Part shown: positions 2,344-33,919 of the stretch, in pieces
Position numbering within the stretch: the stretch's first letter is position 1
How the letters are laid out: each line of letters begins with the position of its first letter
Virus record (IMG/VR): IMGVR_UViG_3300035698_014061
Span: 1-49,772 of that record
DNA: 49,772 bases
Source: a virus
Strand: one strand, 5' to 3'
Position numbers and translations under genes: made by a program
Notes under the pieces: generated by a model
Told to the model about the DNA's origin: nothing
Database searches by the model: none
What the model saw: only the letters and a program-made list of their open reading frames with translations

Positions 2344-3987
2344 TTACTTTTTCTCCTTTGTAAATTCTTCAAAATACGTATCGCACCAATCCATTCGATG
2401 CGGTATCACGTTAATCAAAAGCTCACGAAGTCTTGGCCAGTTTTCTGCGGTGTGTCCCGGACGAAGTAAATGGGCGTCCATATCACCAGCCTTCAAATCA
2501 CGCCAGCAACTTCTGTCTATACGATCGACCGGTGGAGCACCGTAACGTTCGATGATGTCAGTGGCGTCAGGATGTTCCTGCATCCATTTATGAATTTGCG
2601 ATCCCATAAATATCTCGTCATAATTCCAAATAGTCATCCCATCGGTTTCGTTTCGCAAGCCATCCTCCAACGCACTTACCAAACTGAAACCTTCCACAAG
2701 ATCCCGCCACACCGGAACCCTCGCACCCATATACGCCATCGGATATTTCGGCTTGTCTTCGTGAGCGTACGCATTACCATAATACAAGTGAAGTTGTTTT
2801 GAAAAATTGGCTTCAATAAACTTCTGCCCTGCGAGTGGCCACATATCTATATCTGAAATCAATAAGTAATCACTATCTGTTAGAGGTAATCCGTAGTATT
2901 CCAAATCACAAGCGAACACTCTAGCGAGTTGTGCAACAGTCGCATCTTTGAATCCTTCGACGCGATCAATGAAATATATTTCAGCACCAGCTTCTCTTGA
3001 CCAATCCAAAACCGGCCCTTGCCATTCTTCGCAAGATCCCACCAACAATAAAGTCGGAGTATAATTTGTGAGCTTCCTCCAAAGCATAGAAGACAGCGGT
3101 GCAAAAAAAGAATAATCCATATTCAACGTAGCGGACAACACCACTCTTTTACTTGGTGGAGGAGTATCATCTTGGATTGGTGATTGATGGGCTTCAACTT
3201 CGCACTTTTGAATTGCAGTAGTATCGCAGTGAGCATCGAACCATTTTACCACAGGGACGTGTTGGAAACTTTGTCCGATTCCGGGAGTCAAGGCATCAAC
3301 ATCCCGGGCAACATCTTCTGCCAGCTCTACCGTCTTGGAAACTTCACGCATTACATACTGATCTCCTTCGGATGCTGTCGATGCCAAGCGATGACCGACT
3401 GCCCTGTGACGTAGTATGTCCCATATCTGATGATATAAAAAAACCTGATCACTACCATGCTTGTTTGTCATCGCTCTCGACTCGCTAAAATCTTTCCACG
3501 TTGGGTAGAGTTTGCGTATCGCAGCAGTACGGAAGCCACACATACCTCCCATGATGGGTGTTCCTACGTGAGCGGGATTATCTGCGATGGTATGAACGTC
3601 CATTCCGGTATTGATAAAATGATCGCAAGCGTATCTGTCCCGAGGAGTGGGCAAAGCATCAATATCTCGACTGAAAACATATTCAGCATCCGATTCCCAG
3701 ATCGGACGCAATCGCCATAACATCCCCTCGCAAAGCATTGGGGAGTTTTTGCCTCCATAAATCAATTTCAAAAAACTTCCCTGCTGTCGTGCGAAAGCAA
3801 AAAGCACTGATCCATAATAACCCTGAAAGATGCTGTCATCATAATACAGATGGAGCTGCCAACCGGGATATACTTCCGCGTGTGCACGGATAATTGAGGA
3901 CAAAAACTTTTGGTAGAAAAACCAACGATCCTTCGTTTGGCCTTCCCCATCTACTGAATAAAACAAACTCATTCCAATTACATTCAT
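2344..3987 (-). CDS. Two-domain glycosyltransferase-like protein
   Basis: 547 residues, apparently two GT-A-like domains in tandem. The N-terminal half carries YVFSRDIDALP (DxD-type motif, near residue 105) and TPIMGGMCGFR; the C-terminal half carries YLLISDIDMWP (second DxD) and YPMAYMGARVPVW, a pattern typical of sugar-nucleotide-dependent transferases. The start overlaps the stop of the upstream glycosyltransferase by 4 bases (ATGA), showing translational coupling. It probably adds sugars to a glycan on the virion, DNA or host surface; donor and acceptor are unknown. Confidence 0.65.
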   Translation of the reverse strand: MNVIGMSLFYSVDGEGQTKDRWFFYQKFLSSIIRAHAEVYPGWQLHLYYDDSIFQGYYGSVLFAFARQQGSFLKLIYGGKNSPMLCEGMLWRLRPIWESDAEYVFSRDIDALPTPRDRYACDHFINTGMDVHTIADNPAHVGTPIMGGMCGFRTAAIRKLYPTWKDFSESRAMTNKHGSDQVFLYHQIWDILRHRAVGHRLASTASEGDQYVMREVSKTVELAEDVARDVDALTPGIGQSFQHVPVVKWFDAHCDTTAIQKCEVEAHQSPIQDDTPPPSKRVVLSATLNMDYSFFAPLSSMLWRKLTNYTPTLLLVGSCEEWQGPVLDWSREAGAEIYFIDRVEGFKDATVAQLARVFACDLEYYGLPLTDSDYLLISDIDMWPLAGQKFIEANFSKQLHLYYGNAYAHEDKPKYPMAYMGARVPVWRDLVEGFSLVSALEDGLRNETDGMTIWNYDEIFMGSQIHKWMQEHPDATDIIERYGAPPVDRIDRSCWRDLKAGDMDAHLLRPGHTAENWPRLRELLINVIPHRMDWCDTYFEEFTKEKK

Positions 3988-4865
3988 TCCACTACTCCAA
4001 AAAGATCGAGACCTTCGAACAACACCGGATCATTTGCACTAACCATTCTTCGGGCTTCTTCCGCATGCCAACTTTCACCATCCAATACCAAATTGTCCAA
4101 CCAACGTCCATACGGAAACCACCATTCGGGATTCATCGGTGTTGTGATTATTTTATGCTCATCCAACGCCTGTCCGTATGTCTTGTTCAATGCTTCAACA
4201 GAAGAGCGAGACAAGTCAGGCCAACGGATTCTTTCTTGCACATTATACCATGCGTGTTTCGCTCGAAGTCTATTCCAATTAACCCATTGAAGATGCATCA
4301 CTCCTCCCTTTGCTTTTCCCCGCAAGGGCCGGAAACGTAAAGCAGAACAACCATGTGGTGGTCTGTTATGGTGAGCATAATCCCCGGCTCGGTTATACCA
4401 ACCCAAATCAGGATTATCTTTGAACGCTGTGGTGATAAATGAACGACTCCAAACGCTTTTGTCGTCCCGATATGCAACGAGACTTCTCCACGGTGCGATC
4501 ATAGGCAAGTCCAACAGCTGGTAATCGTTTAACGATTCAATCCACTCACGAATATGAGGCAGTAAATTGCCAGTAAGAACTTCGTCCGCATCGATGATCG
4601 CAATATGCGTTGCTCCGGCTTCCCTCGCTTCTTCGAGCGTGCGTTGACGATCAACCATTTCCTGCCAGTGATCATCTGCTCTGGATCGTAAAAGATATAA
4701 ACGATCTCCATACATCGCTTTTGCTTCGTCTAGGAGGTCTGCTGTATGGTCTGTAGAGCCATTATCCAACACTACCATAGAATCGACCCATGACATGGCT
4801 GCACGCAGGGAGAAGCCAAGCACCCAATCCTCGTTGCGAACTATCATCACTCCTACTATTTTCAT
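3984..4865 (-). CDS. Family 2-like glycosyltransferase
   Basis: 293 residues. The N-terminus (IVGVMIVRNEDWVLG, then SMVVLDNGSTDHTADLL) and the DxD-type motif IAIIDADEVL (around residue 100) are the standard GT-A fold pattern of GT2-like transferases. The start at 4865 is set by AAGGA upstream and overlaps the previous gene by 4 bases. Residues beyond about 200 are less conserved and may bind the acceptor. The substrate is unknown. Confidence 0.8.
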   Translation of the reverse strand: MKIVGVMIVRNEDWVLGFSLRAAMSWVDSMVVLDNGSTDHTADLLDEAKAMYGDRLYLLRSRADDHWQEMVDRQRTLEEAREAGATHIAIIDADEVLTGNLLPHIREWIESLNDYQLLDLPMIAPWRSLVAYRDDKSVWSRSFITTAFKDNPDLGWYNRAGDYAHHNRPPHGCSALRFRPLRGKAKGGVMHLQWVNWNRLRAKHAWYNVQERIRWPDLSRSSVEALNKTYGQALDEHKIITTPMNPEWWFPYGRWLDNLVLDGESWHAEEARRMVSANDPVLFEGLDLFGVVE

Positions 4866-5665
4866 TCCAAATATCCTTTCGCAAATGGGCACGAATGCAT
4901 AATGTTCACTTGTAGCTGTTTGATCAACTCAGGCTTGTATTCTTGCTGCCATCTTATCGTAAGATCATCGACATATGCCAAAGGCAACTTCTTTTTTCTG
5001 CAATCCTCTTTGTCCATTATTACTCGCTGAACACTTTCATAATAGTCGAAGAACTTGACACCATCACCAAAAAGATTATCAGTGATTTCCACTTGCCGAT
5101 TTGGAATGCCATAAGCATCAGCGATTATCAAACCGTGGAGCGACGAAGAAAAAACGAATTCGCATTGCGTGATTTCCTTCACGAATGATTCGACAGATTG
5201 AAGAACGTTGATGATGTGTAAATCTTCTGGTTGTTTTCTATGCTCTTTCCCATGCAGCAGCCATGCTTCAAACTGCTCTACATAATGAGGAACAAAACCG
5301 ACTTTATACTTCTTCATTTCAGACGGTGGAATGAATGTTGGAAGAACCAACGCCGGATCACCATACTTGTATCCATCAGCGCAACCACTCAATTTACACA
5401 CGCACGCAGAATAGGGGCCACGAACCAAGCGAACACTAGCAGCAGGATGAATCTTTTCTATGCGTGCTCCTATCCCACTTCCCCATACAATTCCTTTACC
5501 ATCAACCCAATCCATGATACTGCCACACCCATAAAGTTTTACACAATCCGATGCCGGTTCAACAAAAACAGGCAACGCACCCGTTATCTTCTCAATCAAA
5601 TATGGAGTAATGCAATCTCCAACATTCAAACTCTGACACCAAGTTGCTACGATAGGTGATATCAT
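4862..5665 (-). CDS. Polysaccharide pyruvyltransferase-family protein
   Basis: 267 residues. Recognisable family landmarks are NVGD near the N-terminus, VRLVRGPYS, YGDPALVLP, and FVFSSSLHGLIIADAYGIP in the last third. Family members (CsaB/WcaK type) transfer pyruvate from phosphoenolpyruvate onto sugars as ketals, while some relatives are glycosyltransferases. It overlaps the upstream gene by 4 bases and lies among glycosyltransferases, so a role in acidic sugar decoration is likely. A pyruvyltransferase is unusual in a phage genome. Confidence 0.75.
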   Translation of the reverse strand: MISPIVATWCQSLNVGDCITPYLIEKITGALPVFVEPASDCVKLYGCGSIMDWVDGKGIVWGSGIGARIEKIHPAASVRLVRGPYSACVCKLSGCADGYKYGDPALVLPTFIPPSEMKKYKVGFVPHYVEQFEAWLLHGKEHRKQPEDLHIINVLQSVESFVKEITQCEFVFSSSLHGLIIADAYGIPNRQVEITDNLFGDGVKFFDYYESVQRVIMDKEDCRKKKLPLAYVDDLTIRWQQEYKPELIKQLQVNIMHSCPFAKGYLE

Positions 5666-6336
5666 GATTTTACTTTCTTCGGTTTATGTTTGGGAAAGTT
5701 CGCAGCTTTCCTTTTTTCAAATAATGCTTTATCCGCGTTCCAATGATCTCTGGCTTTGCATAAATACTCTGGACGCTTTCGTCCGATCCTTGACCAATGA
5801 TCGTGGTGCTGTGTTAAGTCTGGACGCTGCCAAAGAATCCCCAACTGCTTTGATACATCATGGAGTTCTTCGTCCGCATAAAAATGATAGTAATCAGGCC
5901 AAAAGACTCCACGACCCCCATTGAGCCTTTCAATCACTGAACGACCCAACCACGGACTTCCGCAGATACGTTCGGCGGCACATCTCTTCGCAGAATCGAG
6001 CATCCAACGATCACCAGTCGGTTGCATCACTCCGAAGAGATCGGGGAAGCGTGATTTGAATTGTTTCGCAATATCTTCTGCTTGTATGTTCGGATCCGGG
6101 AACATATCATCACCCCCAACAACAACAATATCTGAATCCACAGCACGGCAAAGTTCTTTCAATGCCTTCGGCCAACCTCTGTACTTCTTCGTGTACAAAA
6201 TCTTATCGGCGTTGGGGACTGTGTGCATTCCTTCGTCCAACAATACTATCGTTTTGTATCCCATGCTTTTCCAAATCGCGAACGTCTCATCACACTTCTC
6301 TGGATTAGCACTCGGGATGGCATACCAAACTTCCAT
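5662..6336 (-). CDS. Putative glycosyltransferase
   Basis: 224 residues. It has a short GT-A-like layout: MEVWYAIPSANPEKC at the N-terminus, DIVVVGGDDMFPDP (DxD-like, about residue 73), then YYHFYADEELHDV. The C-terminus is basic (KHKPKKVKS). The start at 6336 is chosen from AAAGGAAG upstream; earlier in-frame codons lie inside the neighbouring gene. It overlaps the upstream gene by 32 bases and the downstream pyruvyltransferase by 4. Substrate unknown. Confidence 0.6.
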   Translation of the reverse strand: MEVWYAIPSANPEKCDETFAIWKSMGYKTIVLLDEGMHTVPNADKILYTKKYRGWPKALKELCRAVDSDIVVVGGDDMFPDPNIQAEDIAKQFKSRFPDLFGVMQPTGDRWMLDSAKRCAAERICGSPWLGRSVIERLNGGRGVFWPDYYHFYADEELHDVSKQLGILWQRPDLTQHHDHWSRIGRKRPEYLCKARDHWNADKALFEKRKAANFPKHKPKKVKS

Positions 6337-6925
6337 CTTTTCTTCCTTTCTTTGCTTCACGTGATGCTTGCATGTGTAGAATAACAGGTTCCAATGTTGG
6401 ATGCTGCTCCCGCATGAGATCAAAAATAAAACAATACTCCGGCGGCAGATCGACAAAATGAATGTCTCCAGTTTCATGCAGAAGTCTCTGGAGATTTTGC
6501 TGCTCATATCGGTCTGGTCTTTTGATATTAAGTAACTCCCAACTACCGAACAACCGCTGCACTCTGGCATTCGCTTCAAAATAAATAGTGCCACCGAGCA
6601 TTTCCGGTTTGCGTTGCTGGCGTGGTGGACGTATGTGTGCTGCTACGTCTGCTTCCATATCGTCGAATAAAACCATCGGTGCTTGTACCACTGCATCGAT
6701 GTCAAGATATAAACAACGGGCACCTCTATGAGCACAAACGAAGTCAAACAGATACTCCGCTTTGAATTGTGTGTTGTTTTGCCAACTCCCTCGATCTGGC
6801 AAAAGTCGCACATCAAAATCATAACCAAATTTATTGAGCGATTCTGCCCACCGATCATAATGCTTAATGTACACGGAATCGTTGGTGTAAAAACCAGTGA
6901 TCAATAACGGTTTACGTTTCATCAT
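6305..6925 (-). CDS. Putative glycosyltransferase (DxD type)
   Basis: 206 residues. The segment GARCLYLDIDAVVQAP carries a DxD motif, preceded by TGFYTNDSVYIKHYDRW. MLGGTIYFEANARV and PPEYCFIFD are also typical of small GT-A-like transferases that use nucleotide sugars. The start at 6925 follows GAAGGAG and lies inside the 3' end of the preceding gene; the next ATG at 6922 is equally possible. It is the first gene of the sugar island in transcription order. Confidence 0.6.
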   Translation of the reverse strand: MMKRKPLLITGFYTNDSVYIKHYDRWAESLNKFGYDFDVRLLPDRGSWQNNTQFKAEYLFDFVCAHRGARCLYLDIDAVVQAPMVLFDDMEADVAAHIRPPRQQRKPEMLGGTIYFEANARVQRLFGSWELLNIKRPDRYEQQNLQRLLHETGDIHFVDLPPEYCFIFDLMREQHPTLEPVILHMQASREAKKGRKDGSLVCHPEC

Positions 6926-7328
6926 CAAAATCTCCTTCGATGTCTTCCATCCCCTCCATGTCTTTCTTACCATGTTCCCAAGAAATCATACTTTCAATTT
7001 CGTTTTGTTTGCGATGCTGAAAGTTTACAATCAATGGGATTATAATTCCTTCAGGAACGCTTCTGTATAGCAACTCCTCATAGTAAGATCCTGTGGCTGT
7101 GGCCAACTCTCGTGTGAGTCTTTCTGAAGCTTCCATTCTTCTCTTTTCTTTGTCACCATTCTTCTCATTCAACAGTTGCTTGGACAATATATGATTGGTC
7201 TGTTGAATGGACAATAGCGATGCCACTGCTTCTTTCCAACGTTGCGGCCAAATGTCGTTATCGTTCGTTGAGGCATCAGGTGTCAACGGTATCTCTTCAA
7301 CTATTCGTTCCATCAATGTTTTAGTCAT
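6912..7328 (-). CDS. Hypothetical protein
   Basis: 138 residues, highly charged and mostly helical, with an acidic tail (about 120-138) rich in D/E. No domain recognised. It overlaps the upstream gene by 8 bases and the downstream glycosyltransferase by 14, so it is translationally coupled to both. Confidence 0.6.
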   Translation of the reverse strand: MTKTLMERIVEEIPLTPDASTNDNDIWPQRWKEAVASLLSIQQTNHILSKQLLNEKNGDKEKRRMEASERLTRELATATGSYYEELLYRSVPEGIIIPLIVNFQHRKQNEIESMISWEHGKKDMEGMEDIEGDFDDET

Positions 7329-11442: not shown

Positions 11443-11467
11443 ATTATACGCTTGAATTATTTATCAA
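11443..11467 (-). promoter_or_regulatory. Short-spacer promoter (TTGATA-N13-TATAAT)
   Basis: TTGATA (11467-11462) and TATAAT (11448-11443) are separated by exactly 13 bases on the minus strand, as at 9919-9895 and 18814-18790. The upstream box overlaps the last codons of the MuF gene. It would let the small-gene cluster 11422-9931 be transcribed separately from the head operon. Confidence 0.6.
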
Positions 11468-13569
11468 AAGGCAATTTCTTTTAATTCCACAATCCAATCA
11501 AAATCATTCTTCTTATCTATGGATATGACTTTGAATACCTGATGGGGGTGAAACAATATCTCCCGCTCATGCTTATGGGCAGAGTATTCTGCTATATTCC
11601 TTCCCGTCTTGCCTTTGATTTTGAATATGATAGATTGAAATCTGTCCTCCGTCACCTCTGCGAAATTTGCAGCCTTTGCTTCAAGACTCGATGTGGATGT
11701 GAAGGTATCAAAAGAAAAGCCCTTACCAGTTTTCAACTTTGAGGAAAATACATCAAACGCTTTCATATCATTATCATAATGCCTCACCCACTTCATGCCT
11801 CGATAGGAAGTGCCCTGATAACCATCCATCTTGCCTAATACTTTTTTGAGATTGGTGATCTTCCTCTTCATACCCGGAAGTTCAATTTCTGCGAGCACAG
11901 AAGGATCTCTCAAATACTTGTTCATCAAACTGAAATCATTACCCGTATAACCATACAAAGCATCTTTGTCAACTATTCGCAATTGCTCTCCGGTTCCCTT
12001 GCTTGTCAGGGATCGTTGCGGTATTTTTTGCACGGGCTTCTGATAATACTTTCTTGGCCTCGCCAGTCTCTTCTGTAATGTTCGGATTCTGTCCTCAGCT
12101 ATATCCATCTGCCCAATAAGCTGGCCCCGTCCGATGGGTGTGAGGTCTGCTGGCGTAGCTGTGGCCAATCGCGTCTTCAACCGATCCACAACACCTTGAT
12201 GCTCAATCACCTCCAACCGCCACGCTTGTCGTGCTATAGTCTCTTTCTCTGCCATCACTTCCAGTTTTACAGCGTCCAACTGTTCCTTTGCTACCTTCCT
12301 CGCTGTGGCTGTCTTTGCCTGCTCCGCTACGAGCTTATTGGAGGCTGCTTTGGTCTTGACTTTCTGAGCTGCTAATTGGTCTTGGAGCTTCTTTGTTTTG
12401 GCTGTGACTTTCTCTTTGATGAGTTTCTCTTTTGCGATCTTGTCGAAGAGAGACTGATCTGGGTATTTCTTGAGGGCCTTCGGTGATACGGGAGTTGTTG
12501 CGACTTTCTTTTTCACTACCTTCTTGACAGCTTTCTTCGCAGTCTTTTTGCTGGCTTTCTTCTTGACGATCTTGGGCAGATCTCCCTTCAACAAATCCTT
12601 GCCTGCCCATGTACTCTTTTTCTTCTTGGAGAGGAGCGAACCTTTCACCCGCTCAGCATCGATCGATTCTGCTATTGCTTTTTCTTTGGTGGTCTTGGAA
12701 GAAGCGGGTTGATTGGGAACCGGGATCCATGCGCATCTGCAATTGGGATGCCTCGGAATCAATCCGCGTGCTTCTTCCAACTTCAATATCTCACCTTCCA
12801 TCGACTGGCACATTTCGCATACGCGATCATCGCCAGCAGTAAGCCATTCTGCCAATACGGAAACTTGCGATATCCCCAGATCCGCGTATGCATCCAACGT
12901 TCCCTCCGCGTGAGCCGCGATAACCTCTGTACGGGCAATCATTCGTGCCCTCGTACGCGTGAGACCTGTTATCTCCTTGCTCATCTTGCGTGCGATCGAT
13001 CGGGGGCCATCCCCATTGGCCAAACCGAGCGAAAGAGCACGAGACATTTTCTGCCCCATAGCATCGGTCACTCCTTTCAGATCGCTGAAGGCCCGAGTGT
13101 ATATTGCTTCGATCCTTTTTGTTTCCTCGACTCCCTGAAAGCTCACGCCCAAGATATCTCCGTTGGGTTTCGTTCGCATGGCTTCGGGCGTTTGGAGAAC
13201 ATCCCCGTACACCTTTTGATAGGCTGATGCTTGCCCCTTCTTGTAGCCGCTCTCGATGTACGGAGCCAGCCATGGCTTTCCCTTGACGGCATCACTTATC
13301 AATATATTATCATCAACCTGTTCGGTGAGCCAGTCCCGGAAGGATTGCATTTTCTGAGCATCCGTTTGGAATCGCCACACTTGTCTTTCAGCTATGTTGA
13401 ATTTGAGCTTTGGTGGTGCATCTAAACCCAATGCATCCATATCAATAATTGCTGCCCGAACTTCTTTGCCCACCAACGCAAATCGTTTATTTATGTCCCG
13501 CACAAATCGTGCCCGGAGGTTGGTGGTTTGTGTAGGATCCACTCTCAGTGCTGATTTCGTGACTGCCAT
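11464..13569 (-). CDS. MuF-type head protein with C-terminal ADP-ribosyltransferase-like domain
   Basis: 701 residues. Residues about 190-290 are a MuF head morphogenesis domain (ARMIARTEVIAAHAEGTLDA, CEMC and the HPNCRC zinc-like motif). A lysine/alanine-rich and coiled-coil linker covers about 320-500. The C-terminus has the R-S-ExE signature of ADP-ribosyltransferases: Arg near 590 (TSYRGM), STS near 625-627 (FTSTSS) and ERE at 668-670 (HEREILF). MuF proteins are packaged in the head and several carry toxin-like domains delivered into the host, so this one may modify a host protein on infection. The start at 13569 follows AAAGGAAAG. Confidence 0.85.
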   Translation of the reverse strand: MAVTKSALRVDPTQTTNLRARFVRDINKRFALVGKEVRAAIIDMDALGLDAPPKLKFNIAERQVWRFQTDAQKMQSFRDWLTEQVDDNILISDAVKGKPWLAPYIESGYKKGQASAYQKVYGDVLQTPEAMRTKPNGDILGVSFQGVEETKRIEAIYTRAFSDLKGVTDAMGQKMSRALSLGLANGDGPRSIARKMSKEITGLTRTRARMIARTEVIAAHAEGTLDAYADLGISQVSVLAEWLTAGDDRVCEMCQSMEGEILKLEEARGLIPRHPNCRCAWIPVPNQPASSKTTKEKAIAESIDAERVKGSLLSKKKKSTWAGKDLLKGDLPKIVKKKASKKTAKKAVKKVVKKKVATTPVSPKALKKYPDQSLFDKIAKEKLIKEKVTAKTKKLQDQLAAQKVKTKAASNKLVAEQAKTATARKVAKEQLDAVKLEVMAEKETIARQAWRLEVIEHQGVVDRLKTRLATATPADLTPIGRGQLIGQMDIAEDRIRTLQKRLARPRKYYQKPVQKIPQRSLTSKGTGEQLRIVDKDALYGYTGNDFSLMNKYLRDPSVLAEIELPGMKRKITNLKKVLGKMDGYQGTSYRGMKWVRHYDNDMKAFDVFSSKLKTGKGFSFDTFTSTSSLEAKAANFAEVTEDRFQSIIFKIKGKTGRNIAEYSAHKHEREILFHPHQVFKVISIDKKNDFDWIVELKEIAF

Positions 13570-15129: not shown

Positions 15130-16596
15130 TTATCTCAAAGCTCCTATGTATTTCACTTTCTTGACTAGGTAGGCAAAGGCCCCGCTAGTCGCGTCAATTT
15201 GATCCTTGTATTTTGATTGCTCTCTAAACGCTCTCATCTCATCCAAGTATACAGTATTCCAGTCAGCTTGCCTCATCTTAAAATTACCCGCGTTGACTTG
15301 AGCAGCTACCGGATCGGCTCGTTGAAGTTTGTTACCGCTGGAGGCTCCGACCGGATCCGCACTCACCCGGAAGCCTGCTAAGTTTCTGACAGTGGCCTGA
15401 GCCGACTCTTTGCCCCCACTACCAGGTTCCTGTTCAATGCGGATTATAACACGTCTCGTATCAAGCTCGGCCGTCTGCCTGATGATCCGCTCGCGGCGGG
15501 AAGCATCCCATTGCCCGTGCACAACATCTAAAATAAAAAACTCTTGATCTCGTCCTTTGCCTTTCACACCCATCAATACGCCGGCAGTATAAGCTCCCCC
15601 ATCTTGAGTGCCTGCTTTGTCCCAGTACCGCACGAGCTTGACTCCCTGGGGATGCTTAGGCAGTGCGAGGATCTCGATCTCGTCCGTGTGGAACATGCCA
15701 CCGCCGCGGGGGATCGGATTCTGTAGATATTGAGCTTCATAAGAATACTCGCTATGTACGCGTTGGTTTTTCAAGGCTGTCCCTGATAACCGAACAGGAT
15801 CAAAGAGGCCATCAGTGTAGTATTGGCGAAGAGAGGCAGGCCGTACAAATTCATTTAATTCAGCTGGCAAGCAGATGTGTTTGATGTGCCTGCCTCTCTT
15901 CTTTTGAGCCAACCAAAGAGATGAGGGATCATCTTTGCTCAGTCTCTGCATTATCATTATGGTAGCTGTAGTGGTTTGATCCACTTTGCGCTTCGGTATT
16001 ATATCCGTCAACCATCTATTTGCAGCTTCGGTCTCAGCCAAGGATTCAGCTCCCTGCGGATCAACTGGGTCATCGATGATGATGATGTGACCGTGCCTAC
16101 CTGTCACAGCCCCTCCGGTCGAAGTGGCGAACCGCCAACCCCCTTTAGTGTTTTGATAAAACTGCTTTGCATTTTGGGTGCTACTCAATCGAATTCCCGG
16201 GAAACAAGTTCTAAACTTTTCACTGTCAACAACAGATCGGGCCTTTGTTGAAAGATCGAGTGCGAGATCATGCCCATAACTCCCACAAACTATCTGAACC
16301 CACGGCTCTCGAGTCCAACACCAAATAGGGAACATGACAGAGGTGATAGTTGATTTGGAGGTGCCCGGAGCTATGTTGATAAGAAGGTCATGCCGAGCAG
16401 GTTCTCGAAGGAACACCCTCTCGGCTATCTTTTGGAGTTCCTCACAAAGCAGAGGCATGTGCCAATTCTCCGTCATAGGCTCCTCTATAATCTCGTGCCA
16501 AAACTCCTGAACGAAAAACCAAAAACTATCTCTGCAGATGCTCGCGACGATATTACATTCTTCCAATCGAACAGGTTCTGTGGTGATGGGTTTCAT
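15130..16596 (-). CDS. terL: Terminase large subunit
   Basis: 488 residues. The ATPase domain has a Walker A-like motif NIAPGTSKST (about residues 74-83) and Walker B IIIIDDP (171-177). The nuclease domain begins with the strand VRYWDKAGTQ, then GGAYTAGVLMG and the acidic IRIEQEPGSGGK. This motor cuts and packages concatemeric DNA through the portal. It overlaps the small subunit gene by 4 bases (ATGA). Confidence 0.95.
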   Translation of the reverse strand: MKPITTEPVRLEECNIVASICRDSFWFFVQEFWHEIIEEPMTENWHMPLLCEELQKIAERVFLREPARHDLLINIAPGTSKSTITSVMFPIWCWTREPWVQIVCGSYGHDLALDLSTKARSVVDSEKFRTCFPGIRLSSTQNAKQFYQNTKGGWRFATSTGGAVTGRHGHIIIIDDPVDPQGAESLAETEAANRWLTDIIPKRKVDQTTTATIMIMQRLSKDDPSSLWLAQKKRGRHIKHICLPAELNEFVRPASLRQYYTDGLFDPVRLSGTALKNQRVHSEYSYEAQYLQNPIPRGGGMFHTDEIEILALPKHPQGVKLVRYWDKAGTQDGGAYTAGVLMGVKGKGRDQEFFILDVVHGQWDASRRERIIRQTAELDTRRVIIRIEQEPGSGGKESAQATVRNLAGFRVSADPVGASSGNKLQRADPVAAQVNAGNFKMRQADWNTVYLDEMRAFREQSKYKDQIDATSGAFAYLVKKVKYIGALR

Positions 16597-18402: not shown

Positions 18403-18428
18403 ATTATACCAACCCTTCAGCATGTCAC
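18403..18428 (-). promoter_or_regulatory. Short-spacer promoter (GTGACA-N14-TATAAT)
   Basis: GTGACA (18428-18423), 14 bases, TATAAT (18408-18403) followed by AAAG. TTGG before the -10 box would also give an extended -10 element (TGG-TATAAT), so normal sigma70 recognition is possible at this site. Confidence 0.55.
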
Positions 18429-18516
18429 ATTTCCTTTTAATAAAAAATTCCTGGAAGGAGCTCTTTATCAATCACTCCTTTAGAAACCTTTTTCTTCTAC
18501 TCACTTGAGTAGGTAG

Positions 18517-18783
18517 AAAAGAGCCCTAGCGTTTAGGACTCTTTGAAACTTTTGAGTGAGGCTTTCAAAGTGGATCTCTGTCAAACCATTTTGCTGGGAG
18601 CGGCCAGCCACTGCCCAGAGATCAAGGAGTGCAAAAGCAAATGCTTTTGGAATGGGCTAGGGCCTTGCCCATCTCATTTACGTCTTCCTGCCTACTGCCC
18701 CGCAGGATATTTGGGAACGGATCTTGACCGCAGTCATTCCCGGATCCGTCGCCGGGATCGCTCAACAGGGAGCTTTTTTCAGC
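18517..18783 (-). ncRNA. Candidate multi-hairpin non-coding RNA (about 265 nt)
   Basis: A TTGACA-13-TATAAT promoter at 18814-18790 would start a leftward RNA near 18783, and a terminator at 18541-18517 (GAGTCCTA/TAGGGCTC with one wobble, then TTTT) would end it. Between them are successive hairpins: ACGGATC/GATCCGT arms at 18717-18723 and 18743-18749 with an inner TGAC/GTCA; TCCTGC/GCAGGA at 18686-18691 and 18702-18707; ATGGGC/GCCCAT at 18652-18657 and 18667-18672; CAAAAGC/GCTTTTG at 18632-18638 and 18643-18649; GATCTCTG/CAGAGATC at 18573-18580 and 18616-18623; CTTTGAAA/TTTCAAAG at 18541-18548 and 18563-18570. Only very short ORFs without ribosome sites lie on this strand. It matches no RNA family known to me; function unknown. 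Confidence 0.65.
18521..18541 (-). terminator. Terminator of the multi-hairpin RNA
   Basis: GAGTCCTA (18541-18534) pairs with TAGGGCTC (18528-18521) around a 5-base loop, followed on the minus strand by TTTTCT. On the plus strand the same stem has a C-A mismatch and no good T tract, so it works better leftward. A further 6-base hairpin, CTACTC-ACTT-GAGTAG, follows at 18497-18512. Confidence 0.6.
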
Positions 18784-18789
18784 TATTTT

Positions 18790-18814
18790 ATTATACAGGA
18801 AATTTGGATGTCAA
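18790..18814 (-). promoter_or_regulatory. Short-spacer promoter (TTGACA-N13-TATAAT) of the ncRNA
   Basis: Perfect TTGACA (18814-18809) and perfect TATAAT (18795-18790) with 13 bases between, and TG directly before the -10 box. The same geometry recurs before the zinc-finger and 49-residue genes. Confidence 0.65.
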
Positions 18815-18952: not shown

Positions 18953-19044
18953 TAGATAGTTGGATGATTAAAACAGAATAAAGATATTAGGATGGCAGCG
19001 AAAGCAGAACGATCGGGTGCAACCGAAGTTGGTCAGACCTTTTG

Positions 19045-19131
19045 AAAAGTTCAAACCTGTGAGTGCGGATTTATAGCGTGGCTCCTTCGAGCCTGACGGT
19101 GAGACAAGGTTACAGTGCTTTGAACTTTTTT
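19045..19131 (+). promoter_or_regulatory. Structured leader with terminator-like stem
   Basis: AAAAGTTCAAA (19045-19055) is fully complementary to TTTGAACTTTT (19119-19129), which runs into a T6 tract. Inside lie a GGCTC-CTTC-GAGCC hairpin and a CTGT/ACAG pairing next to the outer stem. It is about 100 bases before the first rightward gene and downstream of the 18924 promoter, so it could be an attenuator, riboswitch-like element or antitermination site. The 63 bases inside the outer stem are too many for a simple terminator loop. Confidence 0.5.
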
Positions 19132-19230
19132 GGCTTGAAGAAAGTCATCGATCGGGAGTAGTCCTTAAAAGTGCTGCGACGCACTTCGATCGTTTGGAAA
19201 TTGAAAACTACTTTTTACAGGAGAACGAAA

Positions 19231-22911: not shown

Positions 22912-23130
22912 ATGGAGACCAAAAAACCTATCACCACCGGTGGATACGTCCGTAAACTAAGACAAAGAAAAAACATGACCCAGCAAGGGCTCGCTGATCG
23001 AGCGGGGCTGTCTCAAGGATCCGTGTCTCAAATAGAGAGTGATAAGTTCCGACCCCGATGGAACCACGCTCACTCCCTCGCAGATGTTTTGGGAGTGAGC
23101 GTAAAAAGAATTTTATTCCCCCAAAAATGA
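22912..23130 (+). CDS. XRE/Cro-type helix-turn-helix regulator
   Basis: 72 residues with a canonical HTH: YVRKLRQRKNMTQQGLADRA followed by GLSQGSVSQIES and a closing helix (HSLADVLGVSVKRIL). The start follows AAGGAG. It probably represses phage promoters; the palindrome TATTGG-N5-CCAATA at 18932-18948 is a plausible target. No promoter of clear quality was found directly before it. The gene could control timing of the short-spacer promoters, but this is inference. Confidence 0.85.
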   Translation: METKKPITTGGYVRKLRQRKNMTQQGLADRAGLSQGSVSQIESDKFRPRWNHAHSLADVLGVSVKRILFPQK

Positions 23131-23152
23131 CAAAGACATTCCCATGTATAAT
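23127..23152 (+). promoter_or_regulatory. Short-spacer promoter (ATGACA-N14-TATAAT)
   Basis: ATGACA (23127-23132) overlaps the stop of the XRE gene; 14 bases later TATAAT (23147-23152) is preceded by ATG. It lies 22 bases before the sigma-like gene, which suggests that gene could control its own expression. Confidence 0.5.
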
Positions 23153-23174
23153 TTTAACAAGCAGGAGACCAATT

Positions 23175-23720
23175 ATGGAAAAGGCCATCATGAGTTCACA
23201 GGCATGTACGGAAACATACGAAGATGTCAAATATCTAATGCGCAAACAGTGCAGTCGATTCATACAGAAGCACAACCCACCAAATACCTTTGAAGATTTA
23301 TATGGGGAATGTTGTATCTGGTTCATGAAAGCCTATCATCACTTCGACCCATCCCGAGGTGTTCGCTTCTCTACATATCTCGTTTATTATCTCAAGGCGG
23401 CTTTGTATCACAGCTACCAAAAGGAATCTCCTCATGCATTCGGCAAACATCCAAAAAGTGAAGATATTCTAAATGTTTTACCCTCCCCAAACAAACCTTA
23501 CTCCTTTTGGAAAGGGGTCTACAAAGAATTCAGCAAGGATGCCCGGACTGTTATTGATATGTCTTTGCGAGCCTCTACTGAGATTCAACAGGTCGTAAAA
23601 TCTAAAGGCGGTAACACTTTCAACATCCGATCGACTGTCCGCGAAGAGCTCCATAGATGCGGCTGGCAAAAGAAAAGAATACAAAAGACCTTTCGAGAAA
23701 TAGGACAAGGTGCCGAATGA
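23175..23720 (+). CDS. Sigma factor-like protein
   Basis: 181 residues. Residues about 32-80 resemble sigma70 region 2: FEDLYGECCIWFMKAYHHFD followed by RGVRFSTYLVYYLKAALYHS (compare 'DL..EG...L..A...FDP..G.RFSTYA.W.I'). The C-terminal 60 residues are basic and helical and could act as a region 4-like DNA contact, though it is not canonical. Such proteins redirect host RNA polymerase to phage promoters. The start at 23175 follows AGGAGACC. It overlaps the SNF2 gene by 4 bases. Confidence 0.7.
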   Translation: MEKAIMSSQACTETYEDVKYLMRKQCSRFIQKHNPPNTFEDLYGECCIWFMKAYHHFDPSRGVRFSTYLVYYLKAALYHSYQKESPHAFGKHPKSEDILNVLPSPNKPYSFWKGVYKEFSKDARTVIDMSLRASTEIQQVVKSKGGNTFNIRSTVREELHRCGWQKKRIQKTFREIGQGAE

Positions 23721-29336: not shown

Positions 29337-29687
29337 ATGTACACTGTGATTAAGCGAATGGAAATTGCCGGTAGCCACCAACTGAGTTTGGATTATGACT
29401 CCCCGTGCCAACGGATCCACGGTCATAACTGGTCGATTGAAGTACAGATAGAAGCCACCAAACTGGACAGCAATGGCATGGTGGTGGATTTCACCCGGAT
29501 CAAAGAGATCGTGAACCGGCTGGATCATGCTCATCTGAATGATAAGATGGAGAGCAACCCGACTGCAGAAAACATAGCGAAGATGCTCTGCGACATGATC
29601 AACGCTTGGTTCCAAAATGAACATCGAAAGTGCGTACGAGTAGACGTTCAGGAAAGCACAGGCAATCGCGCATGCTATATGCTATAA
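29337..29687 (+). CDS. queD: 6-carboxytetrahydropterin synthase QueD
   Basis: 116 residues. Zinc ligands H14, H28 and H30 (SHQLSLDY, CQRIHGHNW), catalytic C24, and the DHAHLND and ESTGNRACY segments are as in QueD. It turns dihydroneopterin triphosphate into 6-carboxytetrahydropterin, step 2 of preQ0 synthesis. Position before queE, queC and folE shows the full preQ0 pathway. AAGGAG precedes the ATG. Confidence 0.9.
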   Translation: MYTVIKRMEIAGSHQLSLDYDSPCQRIHGHNWSIEVQIEATKLDSNGMVVDFTRIKEIVNRLDHAHLNDKMESNPTAENIAKMLCDMINAWFQNEHRKCVRVDVQESTGNRACYML

Positions 29688-30340
29688 ATGAAATCTTCTA
29701 CTCAATCCAAGGCGAAGGCCACTTAGCAGGTACGCCGGCGGTCTTCATAAGATTCGCCGGCTGTAATCTGCAGTGTCCTTGGTGTGATACAAACCACAAA
29801 TCAATCGGCACTTTGAGCGCAAGTGAGATAGTTGCTTCAGTAGCGGCTCGCCATCCGTTCAAAAAAAGAACTTCCTCAGATCCTTTGTACGGAGCTGGAG
29901 GTATTGTAGTGCTGACTGGCGGGGAGCCTACTATACAAAAAGACCTCGGCCCTTTAATCGATCAACTGAAGCAATGGAAGAACCTTCCGATTGCTATCGA
30001 AACCAACGGGATCAAAGGAGATGTGATTGAGGAGATGACAGACCCAAGAAGAGAAGCCAAAATAGACTGGGTCACAGTCTCGCCGAAGCCGGAAATGGAT
30101 TTCAAAGATGAGCTATTTCTCAAAACCCTCAAAGCAGGCAATGAATTGAAACTTGTTTTGGATGGTATTGTGAACCCGGCCATCTTTGAAAAGATCCCCG
30201 AGGCCTATCACTTCTTTCGGAACGGCAAAGCCTTCATCCAACCTTGCAGCGGACATTATGAACCAGCAGTGCTTTTTGTAAAAGAACATCCGCACTGGAA
30301 ACTAAGCGTACAGACCCAAAAGATATTAGACATCAGATAA
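29672..30340 (+). CDS. queE: 7-carboxy-7-deazaguanine synthase QueE
   Basis: 222 residues. A radical-SAM enzyme: IFYSIQGEGHLAGTPAVFIR near the N-terminus, then the cysteine cluster C31-x3-C35-x2-C38 (GCNLQCPWCDT) for the iron-sulphur cluster, and LTGGEPT. It converts carboxytetrahydropterin to 7-carboxy-7-deazaguanine. The start at 29672 is inside the end of queD (16-base overlap) and aligns with the usual QueE N-terminus. Confidence 0.9.
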   Translation: MLYAINEIFYSIQGEGHLAGTPAVFIRFAGCNLQCPWCDTNHKSIGTLSASEIVASVAARHPFKKRTSSDPLYGAGGIVVLTGGEPTIQKDLGPLIDQLKQWKNLPIAIETNGIKGDVIEEMTDPRREAKIDWVTVSPKPEMDFKDELFLKTLKAGNELKLVLDGIVNPAIFEKIPEAYHFFRNGKAFIQPCSGHYEPAVLFVKEHPHWKLSVQTQKILDIR

Positions 30341-30351
30341 GGAGAAGCATT

Positions 30352-31038
30352 ATGAAGAGAGCTTTGATATCGCTATCGGGAGGACTCGACTCAGCCACCA
30401 TATTAGGGCAGATTGTTACGCAGGGTCAATTTGACGGGGTTGAAGCTGTAGGTTTCCGCTACGGTGCAAAACACAATTCTTTTGAGCTTGAGAGAGCCGC
30501 GTGCTTAGCAGCCTACTACAACATTCCTTTTCAGATTATGGAATTGACCGAAGCCATGAAGGGTTTCCAATCCAACCTCCTGCAATCTGGAGGGGACATC
30601 CCGGAAGGTCATTATGAAGATGAAAGCATGGCTCTAACTGTCGTCCCTGCCCGCAACATCATCTTCTCTTCTTTGTTAGCCGGTCTGGCTTGGTCTCATA
30701 ATATAGGAACCGTTTTTCTAGGCATCCACGCTGGTGACCACGTCATCTATCCAGATTGCCGCCCCACCTTCTACTGGGCAATGAGAGAAGCTATTGAAGC
30801 TGGTACAGGTGGAAGGGTGCTCTTAAACGCTCCTTTCCTCAACAAGACAAAGACTCAGATCGTCAAAAGAGGACTAGAGCTCAAAGTTCCTTACAATCTT
30901 ACACGAACTTGTTACAAGATGCAGGAAAAGGCTTGTGGCAAATGCGGAAGCTGTACTGAAAGACTCGAAGCATTCAAAAACAACGGACAAACAGATCCAA
31001 TTTTGTATGAAGGAAATCAAAATGACAAAGACGCATAA
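30352..31038 (+). CDS. queC: 7-cyano-7-deazaguanine (preQ0) synthase QueC
   Basis: 228 residues. PP-loop ATPase motif SGGLDS (residues 9-14) and zinc ligands C187, C195, C198 and C201 (CGKCGSC). It uses ATP and ammonia to form preQ0. No glutamine amidotransferase domain is fused to it, unlike in some phages. The start follows AAGGAGAAGC. The 3' end overlaps folE by 17 bases. Confidence 0.95.
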
Positions 31039-31972
31039 AGTAGATTTCTCATGGACGGACATTCGAGTCCGGGCGAAGCATGCCGGAGATAAAATTCTCC
31101 AACATCTGAAAAAAAAGGACGAGCGAGCAATCAAAGACAAAGCCATATACTTGTACGGAGTACCTCGCGGCGGTCTTATCCCTGTCGTATTTGTGATGGA
31201 ATATCTAATGAAGTATTCCCAGAACGGTAGCGACGGGTCGATCGAGATCACCGAAGATCCCCGGCAAGCTGATTTCATTATTGATGATCTCATTGACAGC
31301 GGACAGACCCAAACAAACTTCAGGCAAATCAATCCGGTTCCTTTCATTGCCTTACTGGACAAGAATAAGGAAATGAATTATCGAAAAGCCTGGGTGGTCT
31401 TTCCTTGGGAAAGGGCCTGTAATGAAAATGGTCCCGGAGAAAACATCAGACGAATACTGGAATTCATCGGTGAAAATCCTAATCGAGAAGGTTTGGTTGA
31501 AACACCGAGTCGTGTGATCCGTTCTTTTGAAAAGCTGTACGGTGGCTATAACATCAACCCAAAAGAAGTGATGAAAACTTTTACTGAAGGAACCTGCGAC
31601 GAAATGGTGGTTCTAAAAGATATTGAATTCTTTTCAACCTGCGAGCATCATATGCTTCCCTTCTTTGGAAAAGCCCATATCGCCTACATCCCGGATGGCA
31701 AAGTGCTTGGCATTTCCAAACTCGCAAGGCTGCTTGAGGTGTACGCCCGTCGACTTCAAATTCAGGAACGTCTATGCCAGCAAGTCACCGGTGCTTTGAA
31801 TGAGTATTTGGAACCCTTGGGAGCCGCTTGCGTCTTGGAAGCTCGTCATTTCTGTATGACTTCTCGAGGAGTAGAAAAGCAACACTCATCCATGGTCACC
31901 TCCTCTTTGACGGGTGCTTTCAAAACAAACCCCGAAGCCCGTGCCGAGTTTATGAGGTTGATTGGTAAATGA
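31022..31972 (+). CDS. folE: Phosphoribosyltransferase-like/GTP cyclohydrolase I fusion
   Basis: 316 residues. Residues 1-130 look like a type I phosphoribosyltransferase: [13 protein letters not shown] and the PRPP-binding motif [11 protein letters not shown] (86-96). Residues about 135-316 are GTP cyclohydrolase I, with zinc ligands C207 and H210 ([10 protein letters not shown]) and C278 (HFCMTSRGV). FolE makes the first intermediate (dihydroneopterin triphosphate) for QueD. The fusion might feed GTP to FolE by purine salvage, but this is inference. The start follows AAGGAAATC. Confidence 0.85.
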
Positions 31973-32889
31973 AAAACGAACAAACCATCGGCAGGCACTT
32001 TTTGGACTCGGGCGGATTTTCTATTGGCTCCTTAGCAAAGGCCTATCAGAAAGAAGCTACTCTCGAACAAAAGAAAAAGTACAAAACTTATTATGAAACG
32101 CCGGAGTTCTTTTCCTATCTCGATAGATACGCCGCGTTTGTTGTCAAGTATAGTGAAGTGATCGACTGCTACGCCAATGTAGATGTGATCGGGGATGCCG
32201 AACAGACTTGGGCAAATCAAAAGTATCTTGAAAGAAAAGGGATTCACCCAGTTCCGGTGATTCATTTCCACACGGATGTAAATTGGATCCGTCATTATCT
32301 TGAAAAATATGAGTACATTGCTCTGGGTGGTTTGGTGACTGCTTTGAGTCCGTTCAAAGGAGATTATAAAGGCAAAAAAGTTTTAGAAGATTGGCTGGAC
32401 AAGGCCTTCTCTATTATTTGTAATCAAACCTCCCGCAAGCCGCTGGTGAAAGTCCATGGCTTCGGCGTAACCTCATACGATATTTTCACAAATTATCCTT
32501 GGTATAGTACCGATTCAACTTCGTGGGTCAAGCACGGCGGTTATGGTCGAATCATGGTGCCAAAAATAATCAAAGGTGAGCCGGTCTGGACGAAGCCTCC
32601 GTTCGTTCTTAGTGTTTCAGACGACTCAACAAAACGACATAAGCGGCATCTGCTTGGTTTTTCTCCGCGAGCGATAGACCTTGTGAAGACATGGCTGAAG
32701 ATCATCGACGTCCCACTAGGTAAGACCGATGCTGAAGGTGAGACAGTCTCACCCGGAGTGGGTAATGACAGCAATTTCAGATCCCTTGCCAATTACAGAT
32801 ACTACAGAGGGCTCGCAGATTCAAGACCGGAATGGCCTTGGGCTTGGAAAAGGAAAGTGTCCAAAAGAGAAGGATGTATTTACAAATGA
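31969..32889 (+). CDS. dpdA: DpdA-like DNA-guanine transglycosylase 1 (catalytic part)
   Basis: 306 residues of the TGT-like DpdA family: LDSGGFS near residue 12, [29 protein letters not shown], and [13 protein letters not shown] with YSTDSTSW. Most of these blocks are shared with the second copy at 33059. DpdA enzymes exchange guanine in DNA for preQ0 or a derivative. The protein begins directly at the 'LDSGxF' strand and lacks the usual N-terminal strand with the SG...TFF pattern, which here occurs in separate small ORFs. The ATG overlaps the folE stop. Confidence 0.8.
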
Positions 32890-33059
32890 TAATGTATTTC
32901 TCAGGAATCTCGAAGGATCTAATTGCGCAAGGCGTCAAACCTGTACCGGATGTGATGATGACTTTTTTTGATATGTATAAATCAAAAAGACCCTCCAGTC
33001 AGCTTATGGATTTAATCAAACAAAGAAGACGAGCCAAAAGAGAAGAGAAGCAGCAGTAA
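32886..33059 (+). CDS. DpdA N-terminal-like small module
   Basis: 57 residues, [19 protein letters not shown] continuing to VMMTFFDMYKSKRPSS and a basic tail. The pattern M-I-x-[YF]-x-SG ... VM[ML]TFF ... K...RP is repeated twice in the 116-residue ORF at 33916. It resembles the segment that precedes the LDSGAF strand in full-length phage TGT-like proteins. Coupled at both ends (ATGA with dpdA1, TAATG with dpdA2), so it may complete the barrel of the DpdA encoded next. Confidence 0.6.
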   Translation: MIMYFSGISKDLIAQGVKPVPDVMMTFFDMYKSKRPSSQLMDLIKQRRRAKREEKQQ

Positions 33060-33919
33060 TGAAAGAAGACGCCTTCCCGATGATGGATTATGTCACCAAC
33101 CCTATACCTTTGTTTTTGGACTCGGGAGCCTTTTCACTTCTAGCCCAAAAGAAGTTGACTGATAAGGAAATGAAGGAGTACATAGACAACTATGCCGCCT
33201 TCATCCACAAATATAGTTTGGCGATTGATTACTACGCCAACGTAGACGTGATCGGCGATCCGGAAGCAACCCTAAAAAATCAAGAGTATATGGAAGATGC
33301 TCATGGCCTGGAACCGGTTCCCGTAATTCATTTTGGATCGGATATCAAATGGATTGAAAAGTATGTCGAACGAGGTAGCAAATACATAGGCCTTGGGGGA
33401 CTGGTGAGGAGACGCCCCGCAGAAAAAAGAAAATGGCTTGACCGCTGTTTTAATTTCCTTTGTGATACCGAAGACCGAACTCCGATCGTGCGGGTGCATG
33501 GTTTTGGAATGACTTCATATCGATTCCTTCTTGATTATCCTTGGTACAGTGTAGATTCAACCACGTGGTCAAAAACATCTTCACTTGGAAGCATCCTAGT
33601 TCCCCATAAAAGGAAAGGCGCATTCACCTTCGATGAAAAGCCTTACAGTATAGGAGTGTCTTCCTCGAGTCCTTTAGTCAGTGCAGCGGGCAAGCATTAC
33701 TTCCACCTCTCCAATTCAGAAAAAAAGATTGTGGATGAATGGCTCGAGTTTCTCGGTATACCTTTTGGGAGGATCGAAAATGAGAAGCCGGTTGAGCATG
33801 GTGTTTTGACCACGTACATTTTCAGAAACATCGCCAATTTATATTTCTTCAGAGAGATGCAGAAGACGATTCCTCCTTACCCCAGAGCCTTCCAAAAGAA
33901 GACAAGAGGTTTCTTATGA
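33059..33919 (+). CDS. dpdA: DpdA-like DNA-guanine transglycosylase 2 (catalytic part)
   Basis: 286 residues. Shares with copy 1: [47 protein letters not shown] and WYSVDSTTW. The aspartates in LDSG and VDST are the likely catalytic positions by analogy with TGT enzymes. As in copy 1 the N-terminal strand is missing from this ORF; a 57-residue module with that pattern ends in the TAATG at its start. Two copies could act on different bases, sequences or substrates, or form a heterodimer. Confidence 0.8.
   Translation: MKEDAFPMMDYVTNPIPLFLDSGAFSLLAQKKLTDKEMKEYIDNYAAFIHKYSLAIDYYANVDVIGDPEATLKNQEYMEDAHGLEPVPVIHFGSDIKWIEKYVERGSKYIGLGGLVRRRPAEKRKWLDRCFNFLCDTEDRTPIVRVHGFGMTSYRFLLDYPWYSVDSTTWSKTSSLGSILVPHKRKGAFTFDEKPYSIGVSSSSPLVSAAGKHYFHLSNSEKKIVDEWLEFLGIPFGRIENEKPVEHGVLTTYIFRNIANLYFFREMQKTIPPYPRAFQKKTRGFL

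Follow-up and report, generated by a model that had tools for sequence, protein, structure and literature searches.

Comparison of two related, uncultured phages supports a proposed structured non-coding RNA (ncRNA) of about 340 nt, here called RNA1, on the leftward strand of the window, which is the whole 49,772-nt viral stretch analysed (IMG/VR record IMGVR_UViG_3300035698_014061). The comparison is decisive for a predicted structure of at least six helices that is conserved by compensatory change while no ORF is conserved. Judged from its sequence, RNA1 matches no known family and adds a new one to an established broad type, the phage structured ncRNAs.

The second sequence came from relatives of the phage. 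Relatives of the TerL protein encoded at 15130-16596, each 77% identical to it, were found on four IMG/VR contigs, the longest of which, G001 (59.5 kb), is mostly colinear with the window across homologous genes and carries a syntenic RNA1 homologue between MoxR (78% identical) and TerS. Because the four contig copies of this homologue are identical across the 1 kb compared, they were counted as one, and the evidence on RNA1 consists of two independent sequences with about 70% RNA identity. Two phage species at this distance settle a large part of the secondary structure at the level of single base pairs, and so provide natural mutants together with their compensatory mutants.

To measure covariation, we used the pairwise alignment of the window with the G001 homologue and a named structure of 62 pairs. 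Data showed that 20 pairs had changed on both sides and yet still paired, compared to 10.1±2.3 when the partners were re-dealt (0 of 500 shuffles as high), while structures slid by 1-3 columns retained 0-1 compensatory pairs. In the named structure 99.2% of cells were paired, versus 33-46% in the slid structures. When all shared stems were listed without naming a structure, four carried at least three compensatory changes, against 0.17 expected. The RNAalifold consensus reached -83 kcal/mol, compared to -31±5 kcal/mol for shuffled alignments that preserve column make-up but not dinucleotides (z -11). The original prediction had claimed a leftward ncRNA built of at least six near-perfect hairpins and had set covariation in a related phage beforehand as its test; covariation was present, with compensatory pairs in each of H1-H5 and H7 (Table 1), and supports the structure of the predicted transcript. 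Its further claim, that the density of stems is far above that of ordinary intergenic DNA, was not demonstrated by stem density on one sequence, as the single-sequence fold gave a z of only -2.2 on the leftward strand (6 of 200 shuffles equally good) and -2.0 on the other; what bears out the structure is the comparison of the two phages.

A coding region was rejected, as RNA1 and its homologue differ by one-base indels and share no ORF. The 122-aa ORF spanning RNA1 had no Pfam match, in agreement with the earlier statement that the locus holds no credible ORF. G-U wobble pairs in H3 and H7 would become A-C on the opposite strand. Because these wobbles fit only the leftward strand, RNA1 most likely reads leftward, as judged from few alignment cells, and the same pairs disfavour a structure formed at the DNA level.

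Because there are only two independent sequences, invariant stretches and pseudoknots lie beyond the covariation test. Among these are the candidate pseudoknot in H5 and the two alternative pairings of the CCUACUC element, both of which are present in both phages and, being invariant, are put forward as candidates. We do not claim the H0 helix or an alternative pairing of the H3 loop with H7, since each has one compensatory pair, which is the level of chance. Where loops stay invariant while the stems around them vary, a bound partner is usually indicated.

Extent and promoter of the RNA1 gene

As originally described, a leftward TTGACA-13-TATAAT is followed by stems in series to about 18519. 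The terminator that was placed at this left end (18543-18519) is better read as an internal conserved hairpin, H7, whose U-tract is weak (UUUUCU in the window, UUUC in the G001 homologue). A hairpin further to the left, T2, has energies of -17.7 kcal/mol in the window and -16.3 kcal/mol in the homologue, and ends in U6 in both phages, their sequences differing. Because T2 surpasses H7 as a terminator, we moved the left end of RNA1 about 75 nt further, and the unit probably extends from about 18783 to about 18442. The idea that RNA1 has its own promoter and terminator thus survives with P1 and T2, the terminator assignment and left boundary being shifted. Promoter P2 directly follows T2; therefore, RNA1 is predicted from this anatomy to be a transcription unit separate from the next leftward gene. 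The GC content is 51% within RNA1 versus 28-33% in the flanking DNA.

Table 1. Predicted features of the RNA1 and RNA2 loci (window positions).
Feature	Positions	Strand	Pairing and remarks
Promoter P1 of the RNA1 gene	18790-18814	-	TTGACA 18814-18809, 13-nt spacer, TATAAT 18795-18790
RNA1, proposed ncRNA	18442-18783	-	about 340 nt; start about 7 nt past the -10 box, end at T2; syntenic homologue; transcription predicted
H0, possible pseudoknot	18757-18753 with 18742-18738	-	UCCYG/CRGGA; 1 compensatory pair, no better than chance
Helix H1	18716-18750	-	18750-18743 with 18723-18716; 4 compensatory pairs; encloses GAC/GUC mini-hairpin
Helix H2	18686-18707	-	18707-18702 with 18691-18686; 5 compensatory pairs; conserved loop GGGNCAGUAG
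Helix H3	18651-18673	-	18673-18667 with 18657-18651; 4 compensatory pairs and one G-U; conserved loop GCCCUA
Helix H4	18632-18649	-	18649-18643 with 18638-18632; 2 compensatory pairs
Domain H5	18573-18631	-	GAUCUCUG/CAGAGAUC, 18623-18616 with 18580-18573; 3 compensatory pairs
Hairpin inside H5	18608-18604 with 18597-18593	-	GCUGG/CCAGC
Candidate pseudoknot in H5	18631-18628 with 18612-18609	-	CACU/AGUG, invariant stem
Helix H7	18519-18543	-	18543-18534 with 18528-18519; 2 compensatory pairs; conserved U-G wobble; GC-rich
CCUACUC element	18497-18513	-	two candidate partners: AGUAGG 18696-18691 in the H2 loop, and GAGUAG 18502-18497, forming a hairpin
T2, probable intrinsic terminator	18442-18494	-	hairpin then U6; folds in both phages
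Promoter P2 of next leftward gene	18403-18428	-	GTGACA-N14-TATAAT; TATAATAAG copy at matching G001 position 51629
RNA2, divergent structured leader of rightward genes	18983-19200	+	three covarying helices; conserved core GUGCGGAUUUAUAGCG
RNA2 12-bp helix	19044-19055 with 19119-19130	+	
RNA2 hairpin	19149-19154 with 19187-19192, and 19169-19173 with 19182-19186	+	

The spacer of a classical sigma70 promoter is 16-18 nt. Both boxes of P1, which had been called a perfect promoter, are present, but the 13-nt spacer is too short for classical sigma70; an alternative reading, TTGACA-18-TAAAAT, also fits. Exact TTGACA-N13-TATAAT occurs twice in the window, and close variants with 12-14-nt spacers precede several genes. 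In the homologue, the -10 box TATAATAA lies at the same place and is one of seven copies of TATAATAAG in G001, most of which have an ATC prefix and near-identical context and several of which stand immediately 5' of an ATG. P1 is therefore not of classical spacing, and is credible as a member of a promoter class reused by both phages. The phage also encodes a sigma-like protein with a Sigma70 region 2 domain (Sigma70_r2, 23058-23720), which may be relevant to this class. Promoters with TTGACA-like and TATAAT boxes and short spacers (13-14 nt) are found at 18814-18790, 9919-9895, 11467-11443 and 18428-18403, all on the minus strand; their counterpart in G001 is mostly ATCTATAATAAG.

Genomic neighbourhood and distribution

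The RNA1 locus marks the point at which a rightward replication arm and a leftward packaging and structural arm diverge. In both phages it lies upstream of the genes for TerS, TerL and the portal, identified in the window as PF03592, PF17289 (phrog_38) and Phage_portal_3, respectively. RNA1 is conserved between the window and G001, whereas the small ORFs between RNA1 and TerS have no detectable conservation. A whole-genome nucleotide comparison found as conserved non-coding blocks RNA1, a second element on the opposite arm (RNA2) and gene-adjoining spacers of 19-65 bases. RNA1 and RNA2 are thus nearly the sole conserved non-coding DNA of both genomes, which points to an important job. RNA2 (alifold z -4.3) has an invariant core comprising GUGCGGAUUUAUAGCG and ACAAGGUUACA, and is an element separate from RNA1, from which it differs in helices and cores. 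No further copy was found by scanning other viral contigs for the exact RNA2 core pattern.

The absence of a known family, noted at the outset, was borne out: Rfam 15 covariance models at the curated gathering threshold gave 0 matches in the window, and permissive Rfam searches of the RNA1 locus and its homologue returned sub-threshold noise only. ARAGORN found no tRNA or tmRNA in the window. With no tmRNA match from either ARAGORN or Rfam, RNA1 is not classed as a tmRNA, a kind defined by its tRNA-like domain and tag reading frame.

For further members, we built a covariance model of RNA1 (R1) and scanned viral contigs with TerL (1 query), MoxR (2), RNA1 DNA patterns (4) and an RNA2 pattern (1). 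In these scans RNA1 was found on the same four contigs only, and pattern matches elsewhere scored as chance. One candidate of 16.5 bits (L261) falls within a 233-aa ORF whose product resembles an antirepressor, and was therefore taken as chance. Relatives of TerL and MoxR at greater distance had no match to the RNA1 model, and no RNA1 match was obtained in phage and plasmid records. Nor was there one in bacterial genomes (6, then 274 and 295 from two classes; 575 look-ups), searched with a 139-nt partial model and, for the large sets, stricter filters; this result carries little weight for a phage without an assigned host. A scan of genome contigs by TerL found no relative, and among the matches listed in a scan by RNA pattern, nhmmer identified no further RNA1. 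Within the data searched, the distribution of RNA1 thus appears narrow, an observation short of proof. Model R1 can be applied to larger metagenome sets for more members.

Searches for targets of RNA1, as an antisense RNA to phage genes, gave no lead: a crude duplex scan among gene starts returned nothing usable, and complements of the longest conserved RNA1 loops occurred a single time, at RNA1's own locus.

Possible roles of RNA1

We lean towards RNA1 being a stand-alone phage gene for a structured ncRNA that would act in trans, as a folded scaffold or a protein-binding RNA. A separate RNA gene is favoured because T2 has been kept despite sequence turnover and is then followed by P2. According to this proposal, P1 would fire during infection, perhaps with the phage's own sigma factor (the Sigma70_r2 protein), and yield an RNA of about 340 nt, which would fold compactly, probably with pseudoknots. 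The loops that are invariant (GGGNCAGUAG, GACGUAA, GCCCUA, RAAAUGGUUUGAC and GAAAGCCUCACUCAAAA) would be presented to a partner, either a protein or an RNA, from the phage or the host, and RNA1 would serve as a ribonucleoprotein scaffold or as a sequestering RNA.

To our knowledge, phage ncRNA genes as large and complex as RNA1 are few, and the most prominent among them, GOLLD and ROOL, have no known function. RNA1 resembles them as a phage-encoded, extensively structured RNA gene with no conserved ORF. ROOL and GOLLD are often found near tRNA islands, and many GOLLD RNAs exceed 800 nt (PMC12286853), whereas RNA1 is about 340 nt, has no tRNA in its window and no Rfam match, and is not assigned to either family. 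More speculatively, RNA1 could be the founding member of a novel class of phage RNAs that are pseudoknotted and act in trans. Together with RNA2 it would make up a control locus of two RNAs where the arms diverge, and would perform a step in takeover, replication or packaging for which, in tailed phages that use classical terminases, no RNA is so far known; we regard this as a tentative possibility.

The strongest rival to a trans-acting RNA is a cis-acting leader of the leftward packaging and structural genes, in which the nascent RNA, as an attenuator or a processive antiterminator, would act on the polymerase that is transcribing it. The switch of CCUACUC from one partner to the other, the H2 loop or the hairpin that follows, would then decide passage through H7 and T2. 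A cis role is possible because RNA1 heads the leftward genes; the terminator-like hairpins H7 and T2 and the two mutually exclusive partners of CCUACUC, seen in both phages, also suit it. The pairing of RNA1 with a divergent structured leader recalls putL and putR of HK022, which share sequence and lie in the two divergent early transcripts; put is about 70 nt with two stem-loops and counters termination by RNA polymerase in cis (PMC9378689). This likeness is one of position only, in that a structured RNA heads one gene arm of the phage and a second element lies on the opposite arm. RNA1 exceeds put about fivefold in length, has more helices and its own terminator-like end, and is unlike RNA2 in helices and cores, so that the structural definition of put does not apply to it. 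Moreover, P2 after T2 would in both phages serve the next gene without read-through, and the small ORFs that come next show no detectable conservation. We consider a leader role rather unlikely.

Weaker still, and improbable in our estimate, is an RNA-based replication element, in which the pair of divergent structured RNAs would mark an origin, with RNA1 as the primer or a regulator of DNA synthesis. The position at the divergence of two gene arms and the phage's own PolA-type polymerase would fit such an element. RNA-based origins do exist in mycobacterial prophages: in those lacking RepA, an ncRNA beside parABS is required for extrachromosomal replication (PMC7157519), and RNA1, compared with it by description, is likewise a phage ncRNA without an ORF. 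However, the cited cases are extrachromosomal prophages adjoining parABS, and RNA1 and RNA2 are divergent and non-overlapping, forming no antisense pair of the RNA I/II kind.

A role in packaging beside the terminase genes, whether as an RNA or as a site recognized in the DNA, is very improbable. Its appeal lies in the position of RNA1 upstream of TerS, TerL and portal in both phages. The pRNA, also a phage RNA gene, is part of the phi29-type packaging motor, while RNA1 adjoins packaging genes that include a classical TerS/TerL pair, has no Rfam match and is not classed as a pRNA; for a DNA site, wobbles fitting one RNA strand would be unneeded. Finally, chance palindromes in an AT-rich spacer without RNA function would suit the modest single-sequence z, but this reading, to which we give practically no credence, is already refuted by the 20 compensatory pairs, unmatched by shuffled or slid structures, and by the place of RNA1 among the few conserved non-coding blocks of the genome pair, unless the alignment is wrong.

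Other genes of the phage

Several further features of the window were observed. The leftward gene at 11464-13569 encodes a 701-aa protein in which Pfam identifies a Mu F-like head domain and a C-terminal ADP-ribosyltransferase domain; a protein fused in this way could travel within the virion and act on the host upon entry. Also among the leftward genes, the ORF list reads as several glycosyltransferase-like or sugar-related frames at 2344-6973. On the plus strand, radical-SAM (QueE-like), QueC-like and GTP cyclohydrolase I genes are consecutive at 29630-31972, which suggests that the phage DNA carries a 7-deazaguanine modification; profile tests covered the radical-SAM and cyclohydrolase domains, and QueE and QueC were named from reading the sequence. 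The adjacent proteins encoded at 31969-32889 and 33059-33919 (plus strand), which have no Pfam match, are apparent paralogues.
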